DNA from: Anaerolineae bacterium
Lineage (GTDB): Bacteria; Chloroflexota; Anaerolineae; B4-G1
Assembly (NCBI GenBank): GCA_030612585.1
Contig: JAUWNP010000108.1
Coordinates: 1-14,876 of the forward strand
Length of the DNA: 14,876 nucleotides
Reading direction: 5' to 3'
The notes under the pieces are model-generated. The model saw only the letters and a list, made by a program, of their open reading frames with translations, made no database searches and was not told the origin of the DNA. Numbering within the stretch: the first letter of the stretch is position 1; each line of letters begins with the position of its first letter. A program made the translations under genes and the position numbers. Below, piece after piece: positions 2,071-13,687 of the stretch.

Positions 2071-2835
2071 TCAGACCTCAATCTCCAGGCCATCATAGGC
2101 CACTGTGACTCCATCCAACCCTTTGGCCCACTCTTCCAGTTCGTCGTGAGGCCGGTTATGGTGATTGCAATGCGTCAAGACCAAACGGTTGGCCCCCATC
2201 CGCTCTTTCAACTCGACCGCTTCAGTTGAGGTGATGTGGTCTTCCTTCGGTGGAGAAAAGGTAGGGGTATTGACAATCAGTAGATCCGCCCCGTCCATCA
2301 GGCTGTAGGCGTAGTGACTGAACCAATTGCGGGTATCGGAGGTGTAGACGATCTTGTGATCGTTCTCGTAGATGGCCAGACCGAAGCATGGAACCGGGTG
2401 ACTGACGGCGAAAGGGGTGAAGAAGAAGCCATCGAAGCGCACGGCCATTCCTGGGTGGAAAGGGCAGTGAAAGGCGATGTCGGGCAGCGTGTCGCCCCAT
2501 TCCTCTCGCCGCAGAGATTCGTATACATCCGGCTCGACGAAGAGGTCCAGGTCCCTTTTCCAGTAAAGGAATTCCTCCAGTCCGCCGGTGTGATCGTAGT
2601 GGGCGTGGGTGAGAAAGATGCCATCTATCCGCAGAACCTTACTCTGGGCCAACGACGCCCGGATGTCTGGCGGGGTATCAAGCAATAACTCGTAGCCCGG
2701 CAGAGAGAAGAGAACGGCGTTCCTGCGCTTCACCAGTTTTCCGCTTTCCTTTCTGGCTCTGACGCAATGGGGACAGTCGCATCCGATGGCCGGAATCCCC
2801 TCTGCCGAGCCGGTGCCCAGAAACTGGATCTTCAA
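2071..2835 (-). CDS. PhnP-like MBL-fold metallo-hydrolase (copy 3 of a tandem trio, intact active site)
   Basis: 254 residues from TTG 2835, chosen because a GAGGT site overlaps the previous stop and the alignment with its paralogues starts here. The metallo-beta-lactamase fold is complete: HAHYDH (H77, H79, D81, H82), H146 in AVSHPVPC, D167 in YTSDT and H222 in LTHCNHH. It also has the PhnP-type structural zinc site, C19-x-C21-x2-C24 plus H225. PhnP cleaves cyclic phosphoribosyl phosphate in phosphonate breakdown, but no C-P lyase genes are nearby, so the substrate here is open; a phosphodiesterase acting on a small cyclic or linear diester is the best guess. It is closest to the next copy upstream (same length, no gaps through most of the protein). 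It is translationally coupled to both neighbours: 2 bp from the previous stop, 1 bp to the next start. Confidence 0.9.
   Translation of the reverse strand: MKIQFLGTGSAEGIPAIGCDCPHCVRARKESGKLVKRRNAVLFSLPGYELLLDTPPDIRASLAQSKVLRIDGIFLTHAHYDHTGGLEEFLYWKRDLDLFVEPDVYESLRREEWGDTLPDIAFHCPFHPGMAVRFDGFFFTPFAVSHPVPCFGLAIYENDHKIVYTSDTRNWFSHYAYSLMDGADLLIVNTPTFSPPKEDHITSTEAVELKERMGANRLVLTHCNHHNRPHDELEEWAKGLDGVTVAYDGLEIEV
2075..2079 (-). promoter_or_regulatory. Shine-Dalgarno (GAGGT) embedded in the end of the MBL gene
   Basis: The final codons GAG GTC TGA (Glu-Val-stop) of the upstream MBL gene form the ribosome binding site for the ATG at 2069. This decides the start of the downstream gene and implies translational coupling. 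Confidence 0.7.
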
Positions 2836-2837
2836 GA

Positions 2838-3602
2838 TTACACCTCTAGTGTCATGCCGTCGTAGGCCACGCTCACTCCTTCGACCTGGTGCACGAACTC
2901 TTCCAACTCGTCGTGGGGTCTGTTTCCGTGATTGATGTAGGTCAAGATCATCTTCCTGGCCTCCACTCGGTCTTTGAGTTCAATAGCCTCAAGGACATTG
3001 ATGTGGTTCTCGAGGACTGTGTCGAAGGTGGGGGTATTGACGATCAGCAGGTCGCACTCCCACATGACGCGCCGGGCATAGTTGGTCAGGCGGGCGGGGG
3101 TATCCGAGGTATAGACGACCCGGGTCTGGTTTTCCTTCACCGAGATGCCAAAGATGGGCCGCTGCCGGCGGGCGGCGAAAGGGACGATCGAAAAGTTATT
3201 AAAGTAGAGGGAGGCCCCCGGATAGTAAGGGATGTGAAACATAACGGCGTCGAGCGCCTCTGTCCAGTGCTCCCGTTTGATGGTCTCGAAGAGAGTGTCC
3301 TCGGCCAGGAAATCCAACCGTCCCGGCCACCACTCGAATTCCTTGATGCCGCCGATGTGGTCGTAGCGCGATCGGGTAGCCAGAATGCCATCCAATTTGG
3401 TGATCTGATACTTGTTGACCAGCCCTCTGATGTCGGGGGCGCAGTCAACCAACAGTTCGTAATCGGGCAGGGAGAACAGAATGGCGTTTCGCTCGCGGAC
3501 CAACTTCCCGCCCTCGTTTCTGGCCCTGGTGCAATGGGCACAATCGCAGCCGAGGGCCGGGATGCCCTCGGCCGCGCCGGTGCCCAGGAAATGGATATTC
3601 AC
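2838..3602 (-). CDS. PhnP-like MBL-fold protein with a degenerate catalytic metal site (copy 2, probable pseudoenzyme)
   Basis: 254 residues from GTG 3602, with GGAGG seven bases upstream. The fold and length match the two flanking copies, and the structural zinc site is kept (C19, C21, C24, H225). The dinuclear active site is not: HxHxDH has become TRSRYDH (R77, R79; D81 and H82 kept), the third-strand His is R146 (AARRQRP), and the last metal His is Y222 (LTYINH). D167 in YTSDT remains. Four of seven metal ligands are therefore replaced, three by Arg and one by Tyr, while the reading frame and the rest of the sequence (LDGI, VNTPTF, RPHDELEE, VAYDGM) are well preserved. This suggests selection for a non-hydrolytic role, such as ligand binding or pairing with the active copies, rather than decay. 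The Arg residues could suit an anionic ligand. That role is inference. Confidence 0.88.
   Translation of the reverse strand: MNIHFLGTGAAEGIPALGCDCAHCTRARNEGGKLVRERNAILFSLPDYELLVDCAPDIRGLVNKYQITKLDGILATRSRYDHIGGIKEFEWWPGRLDFLAEDTLFETIKREHWTEALDAVMFHIPYYPGASLYFNNFSIVPFAARRQRPIFGISVKENQTRVVYTSDTPARLTNYARRVMWECDLLIVNTPTFDTVLENHINVLEAIELKDRVEARKMILTYINHGNRPHDELEEFVHQVEGVSVAYDGMTLEV
2842..2846 (-). promoter_or_regulatory. Shine-Dalgarno (GAGGT) embedded in the end of MBL copy 2
   Basis: CTA GAG GTG TAA (Leu-Glu-Val-stop) supplies the GAGGT site for the TTG start at 2835. The rare TTG start makes this site the main evidence for that start. Confidence 0.65.
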
Positions 3603-3604
3603 GG

Positions 3605-4354
3605 TCAGACCTCCAACGTCAGGCCATCGTAGGCCACTGTGATCCTGTGTGGAGCAGTCTTCTCCACCAACTCTGCGTGCAAGAGATTGTCGTGGTTGAT
3701 GTGGGTGATGACTACCCGTTGGATGGGATAGTCCTGCACCAGGGAGATGAGTTCCTGAACGCCGATGTGACTGCGGTGCGGCTCAAAGGTGGGGGTGTGA
3801 AAAATGGCCACATCGGCCCCTTCCATCAGATGGCGGTGGAGATCGCCCAACTCGGGGCCGGAGTCACTGAAGTGCAGCACCCGCGTCCCCGCTTCCTCGA
3901 AAGCGAAGCCGTAACAGGGGACGTGGTGGATGACCTTGAAGGGCATCACGCTCAGGTCGCCGAAATGCAGCCGTGTGTGAGGATAGAAGCCGGAAAGGAG
4001 CGCCCGTTCTTCCAGGCGCGGGGTCAGCCGGAGTTTGGGCAGCACATCGTAGCCAGCGAAGATAGGCAGCACCCTGTTCCAGTACTCGAACGCGATCAGC
4101 CCGCCGATGTGGTCAAAGTGTTCGTGGCTCAGGAGAATGGCCGACAGGTCAAAAACCTCGGCCTGGTTCAGCATTGAGTTGATCTCTGGCGGCGTGTCGA
4201 GCAGGATACGATGTCCGGCGGCCTCGATCAATACAGAGGCCCGTTGCCGGACGTTGGGGCCTCCTTCTTTTCGGGCCACCTGACAGCGCTGACAGGTGCA
4301 GCCAAAACTGGGGATGCCCTCGGCTGCCCCGGTGCCCAGGAATTGGATCTTCAT
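3605..4354 (-). CDS. PhnP-like MBL-fold metallo-hydrolase (copy 1, intact active site)
   Basis: 249 residues from ATG 4354, six bases after the stop of the phosphatase-like gene, whose end supplies GAGG. Metal ligands are complete: SHEHFDH (H77, H79, D81, H82), H143 in VIHHVPCYG, D164 in FSDSG and H218 in ITHINH. Structural zinc residues are C19, C21, C24 and H221. This is the most diverged of the three copies in its middle part (about residues 95-135) but shares the start (KIQFLGTGAAEGIP) and the end (VAYDGLTLEV). A predicted cytosolic metal-dependent phosphodiesterase of the PhnP group; the substrate is unknown. Placement right after an alkaline-phosphatase-superfamily hydrolase suggests that both act on phosphate esters, which is inference. 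Confidence 0.9.
   Translation of the reverse strand: MKIQFLGTGAAEGIPSFGCTCQRCQVARKEGGPNVRQRASVLIEAAGHRILLDTPPEINSMLNQAEVFDLSAILLSHEHFDHIGGLIAFEYWNRVLPIFAGYDVLPKLRLTPRLEERALLSGFYPHTRLHFGDLSVMPFKVIHHVPCYGFAFEEAGTRVLHFSDSGPELGDLHRHLMEGADVAIFHTPTFEPHRSHIGVQELISLVQDYPIQRVVITHINHDNLLHAELVEKTAPHRITVAYDGLTLEV
3609..3614 (-). promoter_or_regulatory. Shine-Dalgarno (GGAGGT) embedded in the end of MBL copy 1
   Basis: TTG GAG GTC TGA (Leu-Glu-Val-stop) provides GGAGGT seven bases before the GTG start at 3602, the third use of the same coding/RBS overlap in this trio. Confidence 0.7.
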
Positions 4355-8320: not shown

Positions 8321-8683
8321 TTAGCAGGTCACATGGAACAGCCCGATGACCCTGCCCTGGGCCTTGTTCCATAAGCGGATGGCGTCGGGCGTGGCTGCCA
8401 GTTTCGTCTGACAGTTGTGCTTCTGCAAGTATGCCTGGGCCTCTTCCGAAAGGCACACCAGGTCATACTGTCCTGTTCCAATGATGAACAGTTCCGCCCC
8501 CTTTTCGTATACATACTTAACCTCGTCCAACGAAATCGTATGAGAGGTGCCGTAGATTCTCTTGGACAGTTTTTTTCTGCGCTTCTTGACCGAACCGTCC
8601 AATCTCACTATGACGTCGTTTCTGATTTTCCGACCGTCAATAGTGATAGAGCCGAAGGTCGTGGCCTCGATTTTTAGTTTCAT
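8321..8683 (-). CDS. Stand-alone Mth938 domain protein (DUF498 family)
   Basis: 120 residues from ATG 8683, with GAGG upstream. A longer ORF to 8743 would read through a palindromic repeat and is rejected. Family marks: TTFGSITIDG at the start (8-17), NDVIVRLDG (22-30), LFIIGTGQYD (65-74) and the characteristic end GRVIGLFHVTC (110-120). The Mth938 fold is a small alpha/beta domain also found in human AAMDC and NDUFAF3; its biochemical role in bacteria is not established. It lies two genes downstream of a PPK2 that carries the same domain as a fusion; the two share the FG.I.IDG start and the LFH(V/I)TC-type end. A basic patch KKRRKKLSKR (33-42) replaces the acidic/Trp stretch of the fused copy and could bind an anion such as polyP or nucleotide, which is inference. 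Confidence 0.85.
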   Translation of the reverse strand: MKLKIEATTFGSITIDGRKIRNDVIVRLDGSVKKRRKKLSKRIYGTSHTISLDEVKYVYEKGAELFIIGTGQYDLVCLSEEAQAYLQKHNCQTKLAATPDAIRLWNKAQGRVIGLFHVTC

Positions 8684-8707
8684 CCACGTCACCTCACTCC
8701 AGGGAGC

Positions 8708-8750
8708 GTAGGACAAGTAGGACAAGTTGCCAACTTGTCCCACGTCCTAC
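8708..8750. repeat. REP-like palindrome between adk and the Mth938 gene
   Basis: An inner palindrome (8720-8729 with 8731-8740, ggacaagttg/caacttgtcc) is flanked by an outer pair gtagga (8708-8713) and tcctac (8745-8750). The left side also has gtaggacaa twice in tandem. The adk stop codon lies within the right arm. It has no T-run. It may work as a 3' end stabiliser or be an interspersed repeat. Confidence 0.75.
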
Positions 8751-9400
8751 TTCGCCAGGTTGCGGGCTGCCGCCAGCAGGGCTGCGCTGACGGTGTCTAT
8801 GTCTCCTGTCCCGTCCGTCTCCACCAGCAGGCCTGCCTGGCGGTAGTAGTCAATGAGGGGCGATGTTTGCTGGTGATAGACCTTGAGGCGCGCTCGCACT
8901 GTCTCTGGCTTGTCGTCATCCCGCTGGTATAACTCCCCACCGCAACCGTCGCATACTCCTTCCTTGGCTGGCGGGCTGAAGATGGTGTGATAGGGCGTCT
9001 GGCACTGGCGGCAGATCCAGCGGCCTGACAGACGGCTCACCAACTCTTCATCAGGGACGGCGATGTAAAGCACACCGTCCAACCTCCGCCCCATATCGGC
9101 GAGCAGCCTGTCCAGGCTTTGGGCCTGGGCCTGGGTACGGGGGAAGCCGTCGAGGATAGCGCCCTGGTCACAATCGGGTCGTTGCAGTCGTTCCTGCACC
9201 ATGGCGATGGTCACGTCGTCGGGCACCAGATTGCCCTTGTCCATGTATCCCTTGGCCAGTAGACCGAGTTCTGTCTCGTTCTTCAAGTTCTCGCGGAACA
9301 GGTCGCCGCTGGCTACGTGCGGCAGATGCAGTTCTTTCTCCAATCGCTCCGCCTGGGTGCCTTTTCCAGCGCCGGGCGGGCCAAGCAAGATAAGGTACAT
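8747..9400 (-). CDS. adk: Adenylate kinase
   Basis: 217 residues from ATG 9400, with GGAGG six bases upstream. It catalyses ATP + AMP = 2 ADP. Motifs in order: P-loop GPPGAGKGT (7-15), ASGDLFREN (31-39, NMP-binding), LDGFPRT (84-90, AMP contact), LSGRWICRQC starting the LID with a C-x2-C and a second C-x2-C (CDGCGG), as in long zinc-binding adenylate kinases, and RARLKVYHQQTSPLIDYY. The length is normal for the long bacterial form. The usual neighbours of a housekeeping adk (secY, map, infA) are absent; here it follows two PPK2 genes. A polyP:AMP phosphotransferase coupled with Adk is a known route to ATP from AMP and polyP, so this copy may be a dedicated partner. Whether the genome has a second adk cannot be seen here. 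Confidence 0.97.
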   Translation of the reverse strand: MYLILLGPPGAGKGTQAERLEKELHLPHVASGDLFRENLKNETELGLLAKGYMDKGNLVPDDVTIAMVQERLQRPDCDQGAILDGFPRTQAQAQSLDRLLADMGRRLDGVLYIAVPDEELVSRLSGRWICRQCQTPYHTIFSPPAKEGVCDGCGGELYQRDDDKPETVRARLKVYHQQTSPLIDYYRQAGLLVETDGTGDIDTVSAALLAAARNLAK

Positions 9401-9401
9401 T

Positions 9402-9425
9402 GTGATCCTCCGAGTGATCCTCCGA
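9402..9425. repeat. 12-bp tandem duplication containing the adk ribosome binding site
   Basis: gtgatcctccga occurs twice, head to tail and exact (9402-9413, 9414-9425). Read on the minus strand, each copy carries GGAGG, so adk has two stacked Shine-Dalgarno sites; only the proximal one is at the right distance. Confidence 0.85.
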
Positions 9426-9479
9426 TATCAGACACACATAAGAATCGGGAGAGAGCGTCACCGCTGTGGCAGGCGTGAT

Positions 9480-9530
9480 GCGTGAAACGTGATGAAACAT
9501 CAGCGTTTGACTCATTCTCACGTTTCACGC
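9480..9530. repeat. 13-bp perfect inverted repeat in the gap upstream of adk
   Basis: Arms 9480-9492 (gcgtgaaacgtga) and 9518-9530 are exact reverse complements with a 25-base loop. It lies in the 194-bp gap between the Lys-rich microprotein and adk. Without a T-run it is not a standard terminator. It could be an interspersed repeat, an operator or an mRNA structure affecting adk. Apart from this and the 12-bp duplication I see nothing else in the gap. Confidence 0.75.
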
Positions 9531-9594
9531 TTCACGTGCGCTTGTGTGATAGCGCTCTCCCTGATTGTCTGGTCAGCGCGTGGCCGAAGTCGGG

Positions 9595-9663
9595 TTACTT
9601 TCCCTTCTTCTTTCCCTTTTTCTTGCCCTTATCCTTCTTCTTGTCCTTTTTCTTCTTTGCCAT
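9595..9663 (-). CDS. Lysine-rich 22-residue microprotein
   Basis: ATG at 9663 is preceded by AAGGAG six bases upstream, a strong Shine-Dalgarno. The 22 codons end in TAA at 9595. The peptide starts MAKKKKDKKKD and continues as GKKK repeats; 15 of 22 residues are Lys, the rest Asp, Gly, Ala and Met. It lies 62 bp after the PPK2-Mth938 gene, whose linker (KGGKKKGKKKKKSKK) is almost the same in composition. A highly basic peptide among polyP enzymes could bind polyP directly or carry lysine polyphosphorylation. It might instead be a leader peptide whose translation affects adk, or a duplicated fragment of the PPK2 linker with no function. The ORF and its RBS are seen directly; the roles are inference. 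Confidence 0.6.
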   Translation of the reverse strand: MAKKKKDKKKDKGKKKGKKKGK

Positions 9664-9701
9664 TGGAATCTCCTTTTCTGTTGTTCGAGCGGTCGGTTTC
9701 A

Positions 9702-9729
9702 ATAAGACCGCCAGTCGGCCCCCTGTCAA
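9702..9729 (-). promoter_or_regulatory. Possible internal promoter upstream of the Lys-rich microprotein and adk
   Basis: On the minus strand an exact TTGACA (9729-9724) overlaps the PPK2 stop codon. After 16 bases comes TCTTAT (9707-9702), four of six matches to a -10 box. A six-base stem (9689-9694 with 9706-9711) overlaps the -10. The -35 is good and the -10 weak. Confidence 0.3.
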
Positions 9730-10895
9730 CAGGTGATGTGCAGGATGGCCGCCACCTTGCGCTGGGTTCGCAGTTCCTTGTAGGTCTCACAGGCTTTGTT
9801 GGTTCTGTGGACCATGACCTCGATCCCCGCCTCCTGGAGACATTTCTCTGCCTTGGGGCGCATCTTCACGTTGCCCACAGTGCCCAGGCCGATGATTACC
9901 ACTTCCGGCCTGCCCTCGATGACCTTCTTCACGTCCGTGGGACGCAACGCGTGCTCGTCCTTGTGCTCCCAGCGTTCCACTGCACCATCAGGGAAAATGA
10001 TCACGTCTGACTCGTAGGTCTGGCCATCAATCACGATGGTGCCGTACTCGAACTGGTCAATCATGGGCAACGGCGTCTCCGATAGGCTCGTTGCTTCGGT
10101 CATCTCTGTCTTCTTGCTTTTTTTCTTCTTTTTTCCCTTTTTCTTCCCTCCTTTCTCAGTGTCCGTTGGTATCTCGGCAAGTGGGGTGCAGTTCAGTTCA
10201 TGACTGAGTCCGTCCACCAACGTCTTGAGCACTTTGATGCGGGCGTACCATTTGCAGTTTCCTTCGACTATTGTCCAGGGGGCGGTCAAGGTGCTGGTTT
10301 TGAGCAGCATCTCATCTACCGCTTGCTGGTACTGGTCCCACTTTTCTCGATTGCGCCAATCTTCGTCGGTCAGTTTCCAGGCTTTGTAGTCTATATCTTT
10401 CCTGCCCTCAAAACGTCGCAGTTGCTCGTCTCTGCCGATGTGAATCCAGAACTTGAAGAGGATGGTGCCGAAGTCCACCAACTGGCGCTCGAAGTGGTTG
10501 ATCTCGCGGTAGGCCCTTTTCCACTCCTCTTCGGTGCAGAAGCCCTCGATCCGCTCCACCATCACCCGGCCATACCAACTGCGGTCGAAGATGGCGATCT
10601 GTCCCTTCTCCGGCAACCGCCGCAAGAAGCGCCACAGGTAGTGATGGGTCTTGTCCTCCCCCTTGGGGGCGGCAATGGGGTAGACCACATAGCCCCGTGG
10701 GTCGAGTTTCTCCGTCACCCGCTTGATGGCCCCCCCTTTGCCACCGGCGTCCCACCCCTCGTAGACCATGATCACCGGCCGCCGCTGCACGTAAACCTGA
10801 TACCCCAGGGCATGCAATGCTACCTGATACCGGATCAGGTCCCTGGCATACCCTTCTTTGGTCAAGGATTTGTTCAGGTCAATTGTCTCCAACAT
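9726..10895 (-). CDS. PPK2 polyphosphate kinase fused through a Lys-rich linker to an Mth938 domain
   Basis: 389 residues from ATG 10895. An upstream extension to 10970 lies inside the previous gene and is rejected; the stop of that gene is 7 bp away. PPK2 domain, about residues 1-235: Walker A EGWDAGGKGG (46-55), LDPRGY (64-69), HHYLWRFLRRLP (84-95), Walker B/lid DRSWYGRV (104-111), ERIEGF (114-119). These enzymes transfer phosphate between polyP and nucleoside mono- or diphosphates. The sequence resembles the catalytic half of two-domain polyP:AMP phosphotransferases. Residues 248-262 are a Lys-rich linker. Residues 282-389 are a complete Mth938 domain (FEYGTIVIDG, SDVIIFPDG, VVIIGLGTVG, AAILHITC). 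The fusion is not a standard PPK2 architecture to my knowledge. The linker could hold polyP near the active site or attract the acidic tail of the neighbouring PPK2; both are inference. Confidence 0.93.
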   Translation of the reverse strand: MLETIDLNKSLTKEGYARDLIRYQVALHALGYQVYVQRRPVIMVYEGWDAGGKGGAIKRVTEKLDPRGYVVYPIAAPKGEDKTHHYLWRFLRRLPEKGQIAIFDRSWYGRVMVERIEGFCTEEEWKRAYREINHFERQLVDFGTILFKFWIHIGRDEQLRRFEGRKDIDYKAWKLTDEDWRNREKWDQYQQAVDEMLLKTSTLTAPWTIVEGNCKWYARIKVLKTLVDGLSHELNCTPLAEIPTDTEKGGKKKGKKKKKSKKTEMTEATSLSETPLPMIDQFEYGTIVIDGQTYESDVIIFPDGAVERWEHKDEHALRPTDVKKVIEGRPEVVIIGLGTVGNVKMRPKAEKCLQEAGIEVMVHRTNKACETYKELRTQRKVAAILHITC

Positions 10896-10902
10896 GATTA
10901 CC

Positions 10903-11739
10903 CTATCCTTTCCCTTCCTCAGCAGCGCCTGCTTCTGGCTCCGCCAATTCGGCCTCTGCCTCCGCCTCAAGTTCTACCTCTTCGGCGAAATCCTCGTCTT
11001 CTCCGGCGAGGGCCTCGGGCAACGCCCCCACCGCCTCCAGCCGCTCGGCCAGTCCGTTGATGATGGTGTTGAAGACCTTGACTCGCGCCCACCAGCGGCT
11101 AGTAGCCTCGACGATGGTCCACGGCCCCCACTCGGTCTCCGTCCGCTCCAGCATCTCCTCCACCGCCAGCAGATACTTGTCGTACTTGCGGTGGTGCTCC
11201 CAATCCTCCTCTGTTACCTGCCAGGATTTCAGTGGGGCTTTCTCCAGAAGTTTGAAGCGTCGCCGCTGCTCCTTCTTACTGATGTGCAGCCAGAACTTGA
11301 CCAAGACGTATCCGTCGGCGGTGATGGTCTGCTCGAAATCCACGATGTCCCGGTATGCCTTTCGCCACTCCCGCTTCGGCGTCAGGCCCTCGACCCGTTC
11401 GACCAGCACCCGGCCGCACCAACTGCGGTCGAAGATGGCCATCTCGCCGTAGTTGGGCAGTTTCAACCAGAAGCGCCACAGCCAGGGATGCATCTTCTCG
11501 TAGGTGCGTGCCCCACGGATAGGATAGAGTTTGAAGCCCCGGGGGTCGAGGCGCTGGGTCAGAGTGGCGATGGTCGTGCCCTTACCCGCCGCGTCCCAGC
11601 CCTCAAAGAGGATAATGCTGGGGATGCCCGCCTTCCAGGCCGCTGTCTCCAGATCGTACAGCCTGCGCTGGAGTTTGGGCAATTGCTGCCTATACTCCTT
11701 CTTGCTTAATTTCTTGTTGAGGTCTATTTTCTCTAACAC
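10903..11739 (-). CDS. PPK2 polyphosphate kinase with acidic C-terminal tail
   Basis: 278 residues from GTG 11739, with AAAGGAGG nine bases upstream. Walker A EGWDAAGKGT (46-55), LDPRGF (64-69), PWLWRFWLKLP (85-95), DRSWCGRV (104-111), ERVEGL (114-119) and TEEDWEHHRKYDKY (176-189) identify a complete PPK2 domain. In DRSWCGR a Cys stands where the neighbouring copy has Tyr. It starts like its tandem paralogue (MLEKIDLNK versus MLETIDLNK), with which it aligns along the whole domain. Residues about 246-278 form a low-complexity Glu/Ala tail (EDEDFAEEVELEAEAEAE), strongly acidic, unlike the basic surface usually needed for polyP. Tail and the Lys-rich linker of the other PPK2 are opposite in charge. 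Two-domain PPK2 proteins exist as fusions elsewhere; here the two halves are separate adjacent genes, both with intact nucleotide-binding motifs. Nucleotide preference is not deducible. Confidence 0.93.
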   Translation of the reverse strand: MLEKIDLNKKLSKKEYRQQLPKLQRRLYDLETAAWKAGIPSIILFEGWDAAGKGTTIATLTQRLDPRGFKLYPIRGARTYEKMHPWLWRFWLKLPNYGEMAIFDRSWCGRVLVERVEGLTPKREWRKAYRDIVDFEQTITADGYVLVKFWLHISKKEQRRRFKLLEKAPLKSWQVTEEDWEHHRKYDKYLLAVEEMLERTETEWGPWTIVEATSRWWARVKVFNTIINGLAERLEAVGALPEALAGEDEDFAEEVELEAEAEAELAEPEAGAAEEGKG

Positions 11740-11767: not shown

Positions 11768-13687
11768 TCACAGCGCCGAGACAGCCAGGGCCAGTTGCCG
11801 GCGCATCTCGGGACGGTTGAAGTGGCGCCACGTTTCGGGGAACGAATCCACCAGGACACGCAAATCGTACTGCTTGGCCACCAGGTAACGCGTCACCCCG
11901 CTGATGTTGATCCGTTCCCGCCGCTCCTGCCTGCTCCACTGATCCAGGAATCCGATCAATAGATGGCAGGCTACGTCAGCATCGTGCAGATTGCCCAGGT
12001 GGTCCTGCACAATCACCACCTCTTCGACCACTTCCTCCACCTCCGGGCCCAGCACCTCCCGGAAGAACTCCAGAGCATAGCGCAACCGCTTGCAGTCAAT
12101 GCGCAGGGCGTGGAGTGTCTCCAGCGACGCGTTTTCGATCACCGGCTCGTAGCCGCGCACCACCTCGTAGCGGGTGTAGATCAGGGCTGGCACCATCTGA
12201 TATACCTGCTGGGGCACCGGCCTGCCAGGGGGAGGCGGCAGAGCACCGGCCCCTTCCGTGACCAGGAACTGGCCGAATCCCTGCACGAAACGCTGGTATT
12301 GCTTGCTGTCCAGGTAGGCCAGCATCTTCGCCCGCGCCGCCTCTCGCTGTCCCCGCCAGTCCTCCAGCAGTCCATCGAGGTCCGAGCACTCGTGGGGGTG
12401 GGGCGACTCCGACTGTACTTCCGCCGCCGCCAGGTAGTTCTGGGCCTTTTCCATAAAGACGTCGAGGTCGCGCACGCGGCCCAGGGCACGGCCGGTGCGT
12501 CGCAGTCTCTTGAGGAGGCGCCGGAGGGCGTCGGGGTCGAAGTAGGGGGCAAAGACGCGGAAGGCGGAACGCATGCGGCGGGTGGCGACGCGCATGTCGT
12601 GCAGTTCCTCAATATCCTCCCCCAACCGTGTGCCCGGCTCGTGTTCCAGCATGCGCACGAAGTGGAAGAGTAACGCCTTACGCCCGGCCTCGCTCATAGG
12701 ATCGTCGGGCAGGACGCCGGGTGCCTTCATCTTCCTGGGGCGCGCGGTCTTGGGTTCCGTACTCTCCGGCTGAACCCAGATCCCAGGCTCCCCTTCGACT
12801 ACAAAGTGCAACTCGACCTCGAACAGGTGACGCCACAGGTCGGCTTTCTGCCGGGCGCGGGTTGCGTCCTCCCCGGCGAAGGGGCCAAGCACCGGCAGCA
12901 CGATGGCCTGGAGGGAAGGTTGTGCCTTGCCCAGGAGGGTGGTCTGGCTCTGGGAGTAATCAAGGCCATCGGCCAAACGGAGGAGGGCCGCTAGTGCCAG
13001 CGTCTCGTCCCGCACATCGTCCGGCAGGGCGAGGAAGGAGGGCTCTTTATCGAACCGCTTGGGCTTAAACCGCTTGCGATGGAAGGCGGTGGTGCAGGCC
13101 ACCATCTGCTGCTCGACTTCCTCCAGTTCGACCAGCCTGTGTTTGAGGATGATATCCCGGCCGGCGGTGTGGTGTTTTTCGGGGTAGAAGGCGAAGCCCA
13201 CGTTGTGCAGGATGGCTGCCGTCTCCAGCAGGTCACGCCGTTCTGAGGGCAGGCCGTGTACCTCGGCTGTGACGTCGAACAGAGCCAGGGCCAGGTCGGC
13301 CACGTGCCTGGCGTGGGCCATGTCCACCTCGTAGTGCTGGCACAACTCCTCTACGGTGGTTTCTGGCCGTTCAGGGCGGGGAGACCCCGCTTCTACGACT
13401 GCCTCCCCCCCCTCGTCCCCTCCAATGGGGGGGAAAGAGGGGGGGGCGGCCGGTTTTGCCGCCGCCAACAAGTCGGCCGGGAAGACGTCCATCCGCCTTT
13501 CCCTGAAGGCTCGCAGCCAATAATACACCCGCCCGTCCGACAATTCCACCCGTGGGCCGATCTCCGTGGGGGGGAGACCCTGGTCCCGGAGCAACAACAG
13601 GTGTGCCCGGCGCACGTGCGCTGGGTTGCCCTGGCTGGCAATTCTCTCCAGGATGGCTCGCTCGCTAGTCGTCAACTCATAAGTCAT
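11768..13687 (-). CDS. HTH + Ppx/GppA-type HD + CHAD three-domain protein
   Basis: 639 residues from ATG 13687, three bases after the CYTH stop, with GGGAGG upstream. Residues 1-70 form a helix-turn-helix of the transposase/regulator type (HLLLLRDQGLPPTEIGPRV, then RVYYWLRAFRER). A low-complexity linker (about 78-108) is partly encoded by a C/G palindrome. Residues about 110-295 match the C-terminal HD domain of Ppx/GppA exopolyphosphatases: H126, LHNVG (160-164), EKHHTAG (170-176), AFHRKRF (201-207) and LRLADGLDY (236-244); the ASKHA catalytic part of Ppx is absent. Residues about 335-635 are a CHAD domain with the two signature helices ELHDMRVATRRMRS (361-374) and TLHALRIDCKRLRYALEFF (524-542). 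CHAD binds polyP. The protein may be a polyP- or ppGpp-responsive factor that binds DNA or a partner; this is inference, and the HD activity is untested. Confidence 0.9.
   Translation of the reverse strand: MTYELTTSERAILERIASQGNPAHVRRAHLLLLRDQGLPPTEIGPRVELSDGRVYYWLRAFRERRMDVFPADLLAAAKPAAPPSFPPIGGDEGGEAVVEAGSPRPERPETTVEELCQHYEVDMAHARHVADLALALFDVTAEVHGLPSERRDLLETAAILHNVGFAFYPEKHHTAGRDIILKHRLVELEEVEQQMVACTTAFHRKRFKPKRFDKEPSFLALPDDVRDETLALAALLRLADGLDYSQSQTTLLGKAQPSLQAIVLPVLGPFAGEDATRARQKADLWRHLFEVELHFVVEGEPGIWVQPESTEPKTARPRKMKAPGVLPDDPMSEAGRKALLFHFVRMLEHEPGTRLGEDIEELHDMRVATRRMRSAFRVFAPYFDPDALRRLLKRLRRTGRALGRVRDLDVFMEKAQNYLAAAEVQSESPHPHECSDLDGLLEDWRGQREAARAKMLAYLDSKQYQRFVQGFGQFLVTEGAGALPPPPGRPVPQQVYQMVPALIYTRYEVVRGYEPVIENASLETLHALRIDCKRLRYALEFFREVLGPEVEEVVEEVVIVQDHLGNLHDADVACHLLIGFLDQWSRQERRERINISGVTRYLVAKQYDLRVLVDSFPETWRHFNRPEMRRQLALAVSAL
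13405..13446. repeat. C/G-rich inverted repeat within the linker of the HTH-HD-CHAD gene
   Basis: Arms 13405-13414 (eight C then tc) and 13437-13446 (ga then eight G) are exact reverse complements; the 22-base loop contains a second cccctcca/tgggg pairing. It encodes the Pro/Gly-rich linker between HTH and HD. A similar but weaker element lies in the linker of the lipoprotein gene (about 7680-7710), giving a related PMGGEEG peptide. Confidence 0.7.

Follow-up and report, generated by a model that had tools for sequence, protein, structure and literature searches.

A group of polyphosphate (polyP) genes in the window, the whole stretch of DNA of 14,876 nucleotides that was analysed, contains a very short lysine-rich open reading frame. 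The locus raises the question of whether this frame is a gene and, if so, whether its product acts on polyP. The frame and its start signals are the following.

9595..9663, minus strand: Lys-rich microprotein ORF, encoding MAKKKKDKKKDKGKKKGKKKGK (22 aa, 15 Lys)
9670..9675, minus strand: Shine-Dalgarno AAGGAG, six bases (ATTCCA) ahead of the microprotein ATG
9595..9729, minus strand: 44-aa TTG-start extension of the same frame, overlapping the PPK2 stop; this is the form present in the database

The ATG is at 9663-9661 and the TAA stop at 9597-9595. The 22 codons, the 15 Lys and the AAGGAG at six bases, which a sequence-only reading had described, were all confirmed on the minus strand, and ORF, ribosome-binding site (RBS) and composition can be read directly from the letters. 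The GKKK-like repeats of that reading are present as repeats of the KKKG/KKKD kind. Lys is encoded by 13 AAG and 2 AAA codons; the 13 other genes of the window (PPK2 fusion excluded) have 83 AAG and 52 AAA.

We compared this Lys density with 300 first-order Markov sequences that had the length and dinucleotide make-up of the window, scanning 20-codon segments in six frames. The densest segment held at most 6 Lys in the simulated sequences, as against 15 in the microprotein, and the density is far above chance. The microprotein site also matches the start pattern GGAG-N3-10-ATGGCNAARAARAAR. A set of 48 genomes from a single order (perhaps not that of the window) contained this pattern at 34 sites, as against 0 for the backwards control. 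When 30 of these sites were retrieved, 29 were open frames of at least 54 aa (L11, L33, GyrB and CO-dehydrogenase-like frames among them, read by eye, without a family search), and one was another Lys-rich microprotein.

The frame had been placed between a polyP kinase and adenylate kinase (Adk), and Pfam agreed with this, giving a PPK2-DUF498 fusion before it and Adk after it. The gene order on the minus strand is CYTH, CHAD with a Ppx-like domain, PPK2, PPK2-DUF498, microprotein, Adk and DUF498. The nearest genes are as follows.

10903..11739, minus strand: second PPK2, start codon GTG
9726..10895, minus strand: PPK2 (residues 11-232) fused to DUF498 (residues 279-386), by Pfam, with an FDRSWYG motif
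10110..10154, minus strand: Lys-rich linker KGGKKKGKKKKKSKK between PPK2 and DUF498
8747..9400, minus strand: adenylate kinase, the next gene downstream of the microprotein

The microprotein lies 62 nt from the PPK2 stop (9726) and 194 nt from the Adk start (9400). A promoter scan of 8600-9900 gave no promoter-like site on the minus strand, and we therefore assume that the microprotein would be co-transcribed with PPK2. Both PPK2 of the window contain FDRSW-Y/C-G. According to PMC8776046, class II PPK2 phosphorylate nucleoside monophosphates and have Gly at the defining position, and 3CZP, the best PDB match of the PPK2-DUF498 fusion, is named there as class II. Both window PPK2 are putatively class II, with Gly at what is presumably that position. 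Class II PPK2 and Adk would together form a polyP-to-ATP set, a coupling that rests on known enzymology. In the structure model of PPK2-DUF498 (mean pLDDT 64.7), linker residues 241-273 had pLDDT under 50; this is weak evidence for an unstructured linker, parts of the PPK2 domain being equally low.

Some further features of this neighbourhood were seen. Two DUF498 copies lie around adk (8321-8683 alone, 9726-10895 fused to PPK2) and are 29% identical. The protein at 11768-13687, which adjoins the CYTH gene, combines HTH, HD/Ppx-GppA domain III and CHAD. At 2071-4354 there are three tandem metallo-beta-lactamase-fold genes that are alike at their start (M.I.FLGTG.AEGIP).

We also looked for relatives in protein databases. 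With the 44-aa TTG form as the query, two of 74 candidates were within E 10, P0121 (44 aa) and P0122 (43 aa); they are 89% and 86% identical, respectively. A profile of these three sequences gave seven proteins at E up to 10 (3611 candidates) and, besides the first two, found P0123 (E 2.6e-5; AARTIKKEIPMAKKKGKKKGGGKKKGKGKKGK), apparently a diverged relative from the same position. P0124-P0127 (E 0.011 to 0.95) have little in common beyond the Lys part and are statistically weak. Viral contigs yielded no relative, and a plasmid search with 321 bp no match. The sequence-only reading had made much of whether frame and RBS are kept in close relatives, and at the protein level they are: P0121-P0123 keep the start, the composition and KEIPM, the residues encoded by the RBS and spacer. 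As the rest of the upstream frame is also conserved in P0121 and P0122, the KEIPM conservation shows kinship more than selection. P0122 has a one-codon in-frame gap, and residues change to D, G or K only; both points are compatible with a coding constraint. The frame had also been called an uncalled one. This is right only in part, since the relative P0121 was named hypothetical protein (44 aa) by JGI, called from an upstream codon that overlaps the PPK2 stop. The TTG start of the 44-aa form is probably the wrong start.

Free-standing MAKKK-type microproteins with a strong Shine-Dalgarno were found in three other genomes (G400, G547 and G587), and a longer form in a fourth.

G400, loci L098/L125: MAKKKDKKDKKDKKGKKA
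G547, locus L164: MAKKKGKKKDKKDKKGKKNK, whose longer frame is P0127
G587, loci L160 and L165: two microproteins, MAKKKSKKKDKKKGKKKKKKK and MAKKKGKKKGKKKGKKKGK
G056: a form of 41 aa, acidic and then Lys

In every one of these, GGAG lies 6 to 9 bases upstream of the start codon ATG. The features of the class are a strong Shine-Dalgarno, an MA-KKK start, over half Lys and a length of 18-22 aa, and the window microprotein fits them. In an alignment of ten such peptides (P0124 and the G056 form left out), M, A, KKK, K and KKGK were invariant; with sequences of such low complexity, common descent is a possibility only. The G547 gene (L164:6461-6523) and the first G587 gene (L160:2459-2524, contig C215), both on the plus strand, are syntenic before a DUF885 gene and have a Shine-Dalgarno site and a terminator in common, the latter a hairpin with a T-run behind each gene. 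Between these two sequences, the only ones compared, one pair of the terminator stem changes from T-A to C-G with the pairing kept. The window PPK2, PPK2b, CHAD, CYTH and Adk, together with a PPK1, had no match at E 1e-3 in five microprotein stretches (4 to 13 kb; one of them from G056). The microproteins in other genomes lend credibility to the window ORF as a gene; they also weaken a polyP-only reading of it.

We further scored the polyP kinases of the clade for Lys-rich segments, the mark being 9 or more Lys within any 20 residues, in ORFs of at least 100 aa. The sample was 50 Chloroflexota loci, comprising 7 of the 43 loci of the r220 scan and 43 genome-search loci (L052-L094), with the duplicates L044-L051 left out. 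We observed that 22 of 116 polyP kinases were Lys-rich as against 1 of 128 other ORFs (Fisher p 4.7e-7, an optimistic value since related genomes are not independent; the loci were picked by PPK2 similarity, not by tail). By kinase, these were 16/49 window-type PPK2, 5/46 other PPK2 and 1/21 PPK1. Among the best 120 of 7995 scored PPK2 relatives, 9 Lys per 20 at any place in the protein was reached by 62 of the 93 at 360-410 aa (PPK2-DUF498) and by 10 of the 27 over 450 aa.

A KKKxKKK-coding pattern was present in 17 of 32 genomes (31 with a PPK2 match), at 58 overlapping places. Its backwards control gave sites in 13 of the 32, because a Lys run made up of A/G codons alone matches in either direction. 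The distinct frames behind the 58 places were six PPK2 tails, two PPK1 N-termini, eight NusA-type tails, four microproteins and two others; the remaining places were homopurine repeats on four contigs, with three overlapping places (G569 C87 8788-8814) assigned from their letters to that contig's repeats. The NusA-type tails were assigned by a Pfam run for L161 and by similar C-termini for the others. Dense Lys is therefore not peculiar to the fusion or to polyP, since the longer PPK2 and the NusA-type proteins have such runs as well. At their C-terminal end, the NusA-type proteins themselves (L126-L130, L135, L161, L163) are first acidic and then carry Lys runs and an FVEMEYDPDKD-like motif. 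PPK1 starts with MGKKKKKKKK in G005, MPKKKKKKKK in G123 and MAKKK in L005, and the others listed are without Lys runs; the first two N-termini were seen at L156:1647-3848 (minus strand) and L140.

In the genome searches the PPK2-DUF498 fusion was itself rarely met. The r220 scan of 43 loci contained none, and overlapping draws of 7, 396, 60, 48, 376, 2, 201, 400 and 400 genomes (the 376-genome draw largely repeats the 396-genome draw) turned up the fusion in a single genome, G402. Apart from the window, DNA was available for one fusion locus, L076, which is 68% identical; its linker is not Lys-rich, with no more than 4 Lys per 20, and the 78 bp that follow the fusion stop contain no such ORF. 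A search for short Lys-rich ORFs after PPK2 genes in relatives had been suggested, and MAKKK-like ones were absent behind PPK2 in 85 other loci (86 including L076; two Chloroflexota loci have less than 150 nt there). At three of the 86 loci (L026, L034 and L093; duplicates left out), a short frame of 13-20 aa with at least 30% Lys starts downstream of the PPK2 stop in the same orientation.

For the binding of polyP, the known systems give some guidance. In PMC12077175, two proteins with 9 Lys per 20 residues bound polyP and two with 5 and 7 did not, and PMC12345225 suggests that the number of Lys matters rather than their position. Set beside the KPM composition mark of about 9 Lys per 20, which comes from those four proteins, the microprotein has 15 per 20, and at this density it should bind polyP in the test tube. 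It resembles the KPM targets EngA and SrmB of Pseudomonas aeruginosa (PMC12077175) in its dense Lys, 9 per 20 there and 15 here. In EngA and SrmB, however, this is the C-terminal region of a large protein, whereas the microprotein is the Lys stretch entire and its binding is predicted. By the PASK rule (at least 75% D/E/S/K in 20 residues and a Lys; PMC12345225) the microprotein reaches 85%, but unlike PASK motifs it has no Ser or Glu and does so only because Lys counts; PASK motifs sit inside larger proteins and, as that source describes them, are rare in the bacteria examined. AlgP, an H1-like polyP granule protein linked to polyP, is likewise basic and repetitive, but PMC9239181 describes it as a large protein with a helical N-domain and a 154-aa KPAA repeat region, while the microprotein has 22 aa and no Pro. 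The same source tells that in Ralstonia eutropha only polyP kinases of basic isoelectric point were found at the granules, and that in P. aeruginosa a basic isoelectric point is an imperfect predictor of granule location. The Lys-rich C-terminal tails of PPK2 and the poly-Lys N-termini of some PPK1, in genomes taken as Anaerolineae-type from the class and order sampled, have the same composition and occur at the same kind of locus; these are covalently part of an enzyme, whereas the microprotein is free. Searches of the open-licence literature returned only haloarchaeal sRNA work for polyphosphate kinase with microprotein, and only work on histones, the Fur protein and epigenetics (by title) for PPK2 with a Lys-rich tail or linker.

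Our leading reading, to which we give a probability of about 0.42, is that a real, translated, polyP-binding microprotein is encoded in a class II PPK2/adenylate kinase operon and acts in trans like the kinase tails. It would be an unstructured polycation that binds polyP non-covalently, and as a free molecule it would do what the Lys-rich linkers and tails of polyP kinases are proposed to do in cis. PolyP would thereby be kept near the enzymes, or be condensed and capped, while the energy route would run from polyP + AMP to ADP (PPK2) and from 2 ADP to ATP + AMP (Adk). Supply in trans of what the tails may supply in cis would be the most economical reading; for a free cation, RNA or DNA could be an equally good ligand. 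A rather unlikely extension is a dedicated counter-ion or local tether peptide for polyP, encoded and made with PPK2 and Adk and belonging to a wider MAKKK family of protein-made polyamines. The non-covalently polyP-binding Lys-rich stretches described in the available parts of PMC12077175, PMC12345225 and PMC9239181 are parts of larger proteins. If the leading reading is true, the free microprotein and the recurring kinase tails would be a sign that bacterial genomes code for dedicated handles on polyP, and a class of genes of under 30 residues would have been overlooked or wrongly started in databases.

The idea of a polyP ligand draws indirect support from a Lys density over that of two proven binders, from the polyP-enzyme neighbours and from the kinase tails; a role specific to polyP fares less well, given similar microproteins with no polyP gene in the stretches searched and none behind PPK2 in the other loci. 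The same facts leave room for a doubtful but quite conceivable alternative, in which the ORF belongs to a general Lys-rich MAKKK class (KKGK near the end) directed at nucleic acid, ribosomes or any polyanion, and the proximity of PPK2 is incidental. The free-standing microproteins of G400, G547 and G587, the five stretches without a polyP-gene match, the synteny, common Shine-Dalgarno and kept stem pairing of the G547 and G587 C215 copies, the invariant residues of the ten peptides and the Lys runs in NusA-type proteins of the same genomes all fit it. It is opposed by the enrichment of Lys runs in polyP kinases over neighbouring ORFs, and its own evidence is tempered by low complexity and by the shortness of the stretches searched. 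That the ORF is a remnant, translated yet functionless, whether of a ppk1 now lost (its 5' end) or of a kinase tail that became detached, seems to us improbable. Of the 50 Chloroflexota loci, 18 show a PPK1 N-terminal end, which in 17 cases follows PPK2 immediately and in the same orientation, and the poly-Lys starts of some PPK1 (G005, G123, L005) would suit such an origin. However, no PPK1 similarity was found behind the ORF, where matches were at chance level (E 0.3 and up) with none in 9401-9594, and P0121-P0123 have kept the start, the RBS-coding residues and the composition.

The sequence-only reading had also suggested a leader peptide, with the inverted repeat downstream as the responding structure. 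Lys runs can slow ribosomes, and stalling on the Lys codons or a shortage of Lys would then switch an RNA structure that controls adk. The region concerned contains the following feature.

9441..9566, no strand: palindrome of about 126 nt that lies between microprotein and adk and includes the 13-bp inverted repeat

The 13-bp repeat is exact (9480-9492 / 9518-9530), the palindrome arms are 42 nt at 71%, and 9401-9600, leading up to adk, folds strongly (z -4.62), which would favour a leader. However, the next gene is adk rather than one for lysine, all three terminator-like sites of 8600-9900 are on the plus strand with no stem and T-run on the coding strand, the single long palindrome has no evident alternative terminator arm, and Rfam gave no match at the gathering score. 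We conclude that a leader peptide is very improbable here. By its look, the palindrome is nearer to a mobile palindromic element, MITE- or REP-like, than to a regulator; none of 165 loci contained an exact copy of its core 12-mer CGTGAAACGTGA. Close to adk, at 9402-9425, a 12-bp unit with GGAGG (minus strand) is present as an exact tandem copy, giving two Shine-Dalgarno-like sites for adk.
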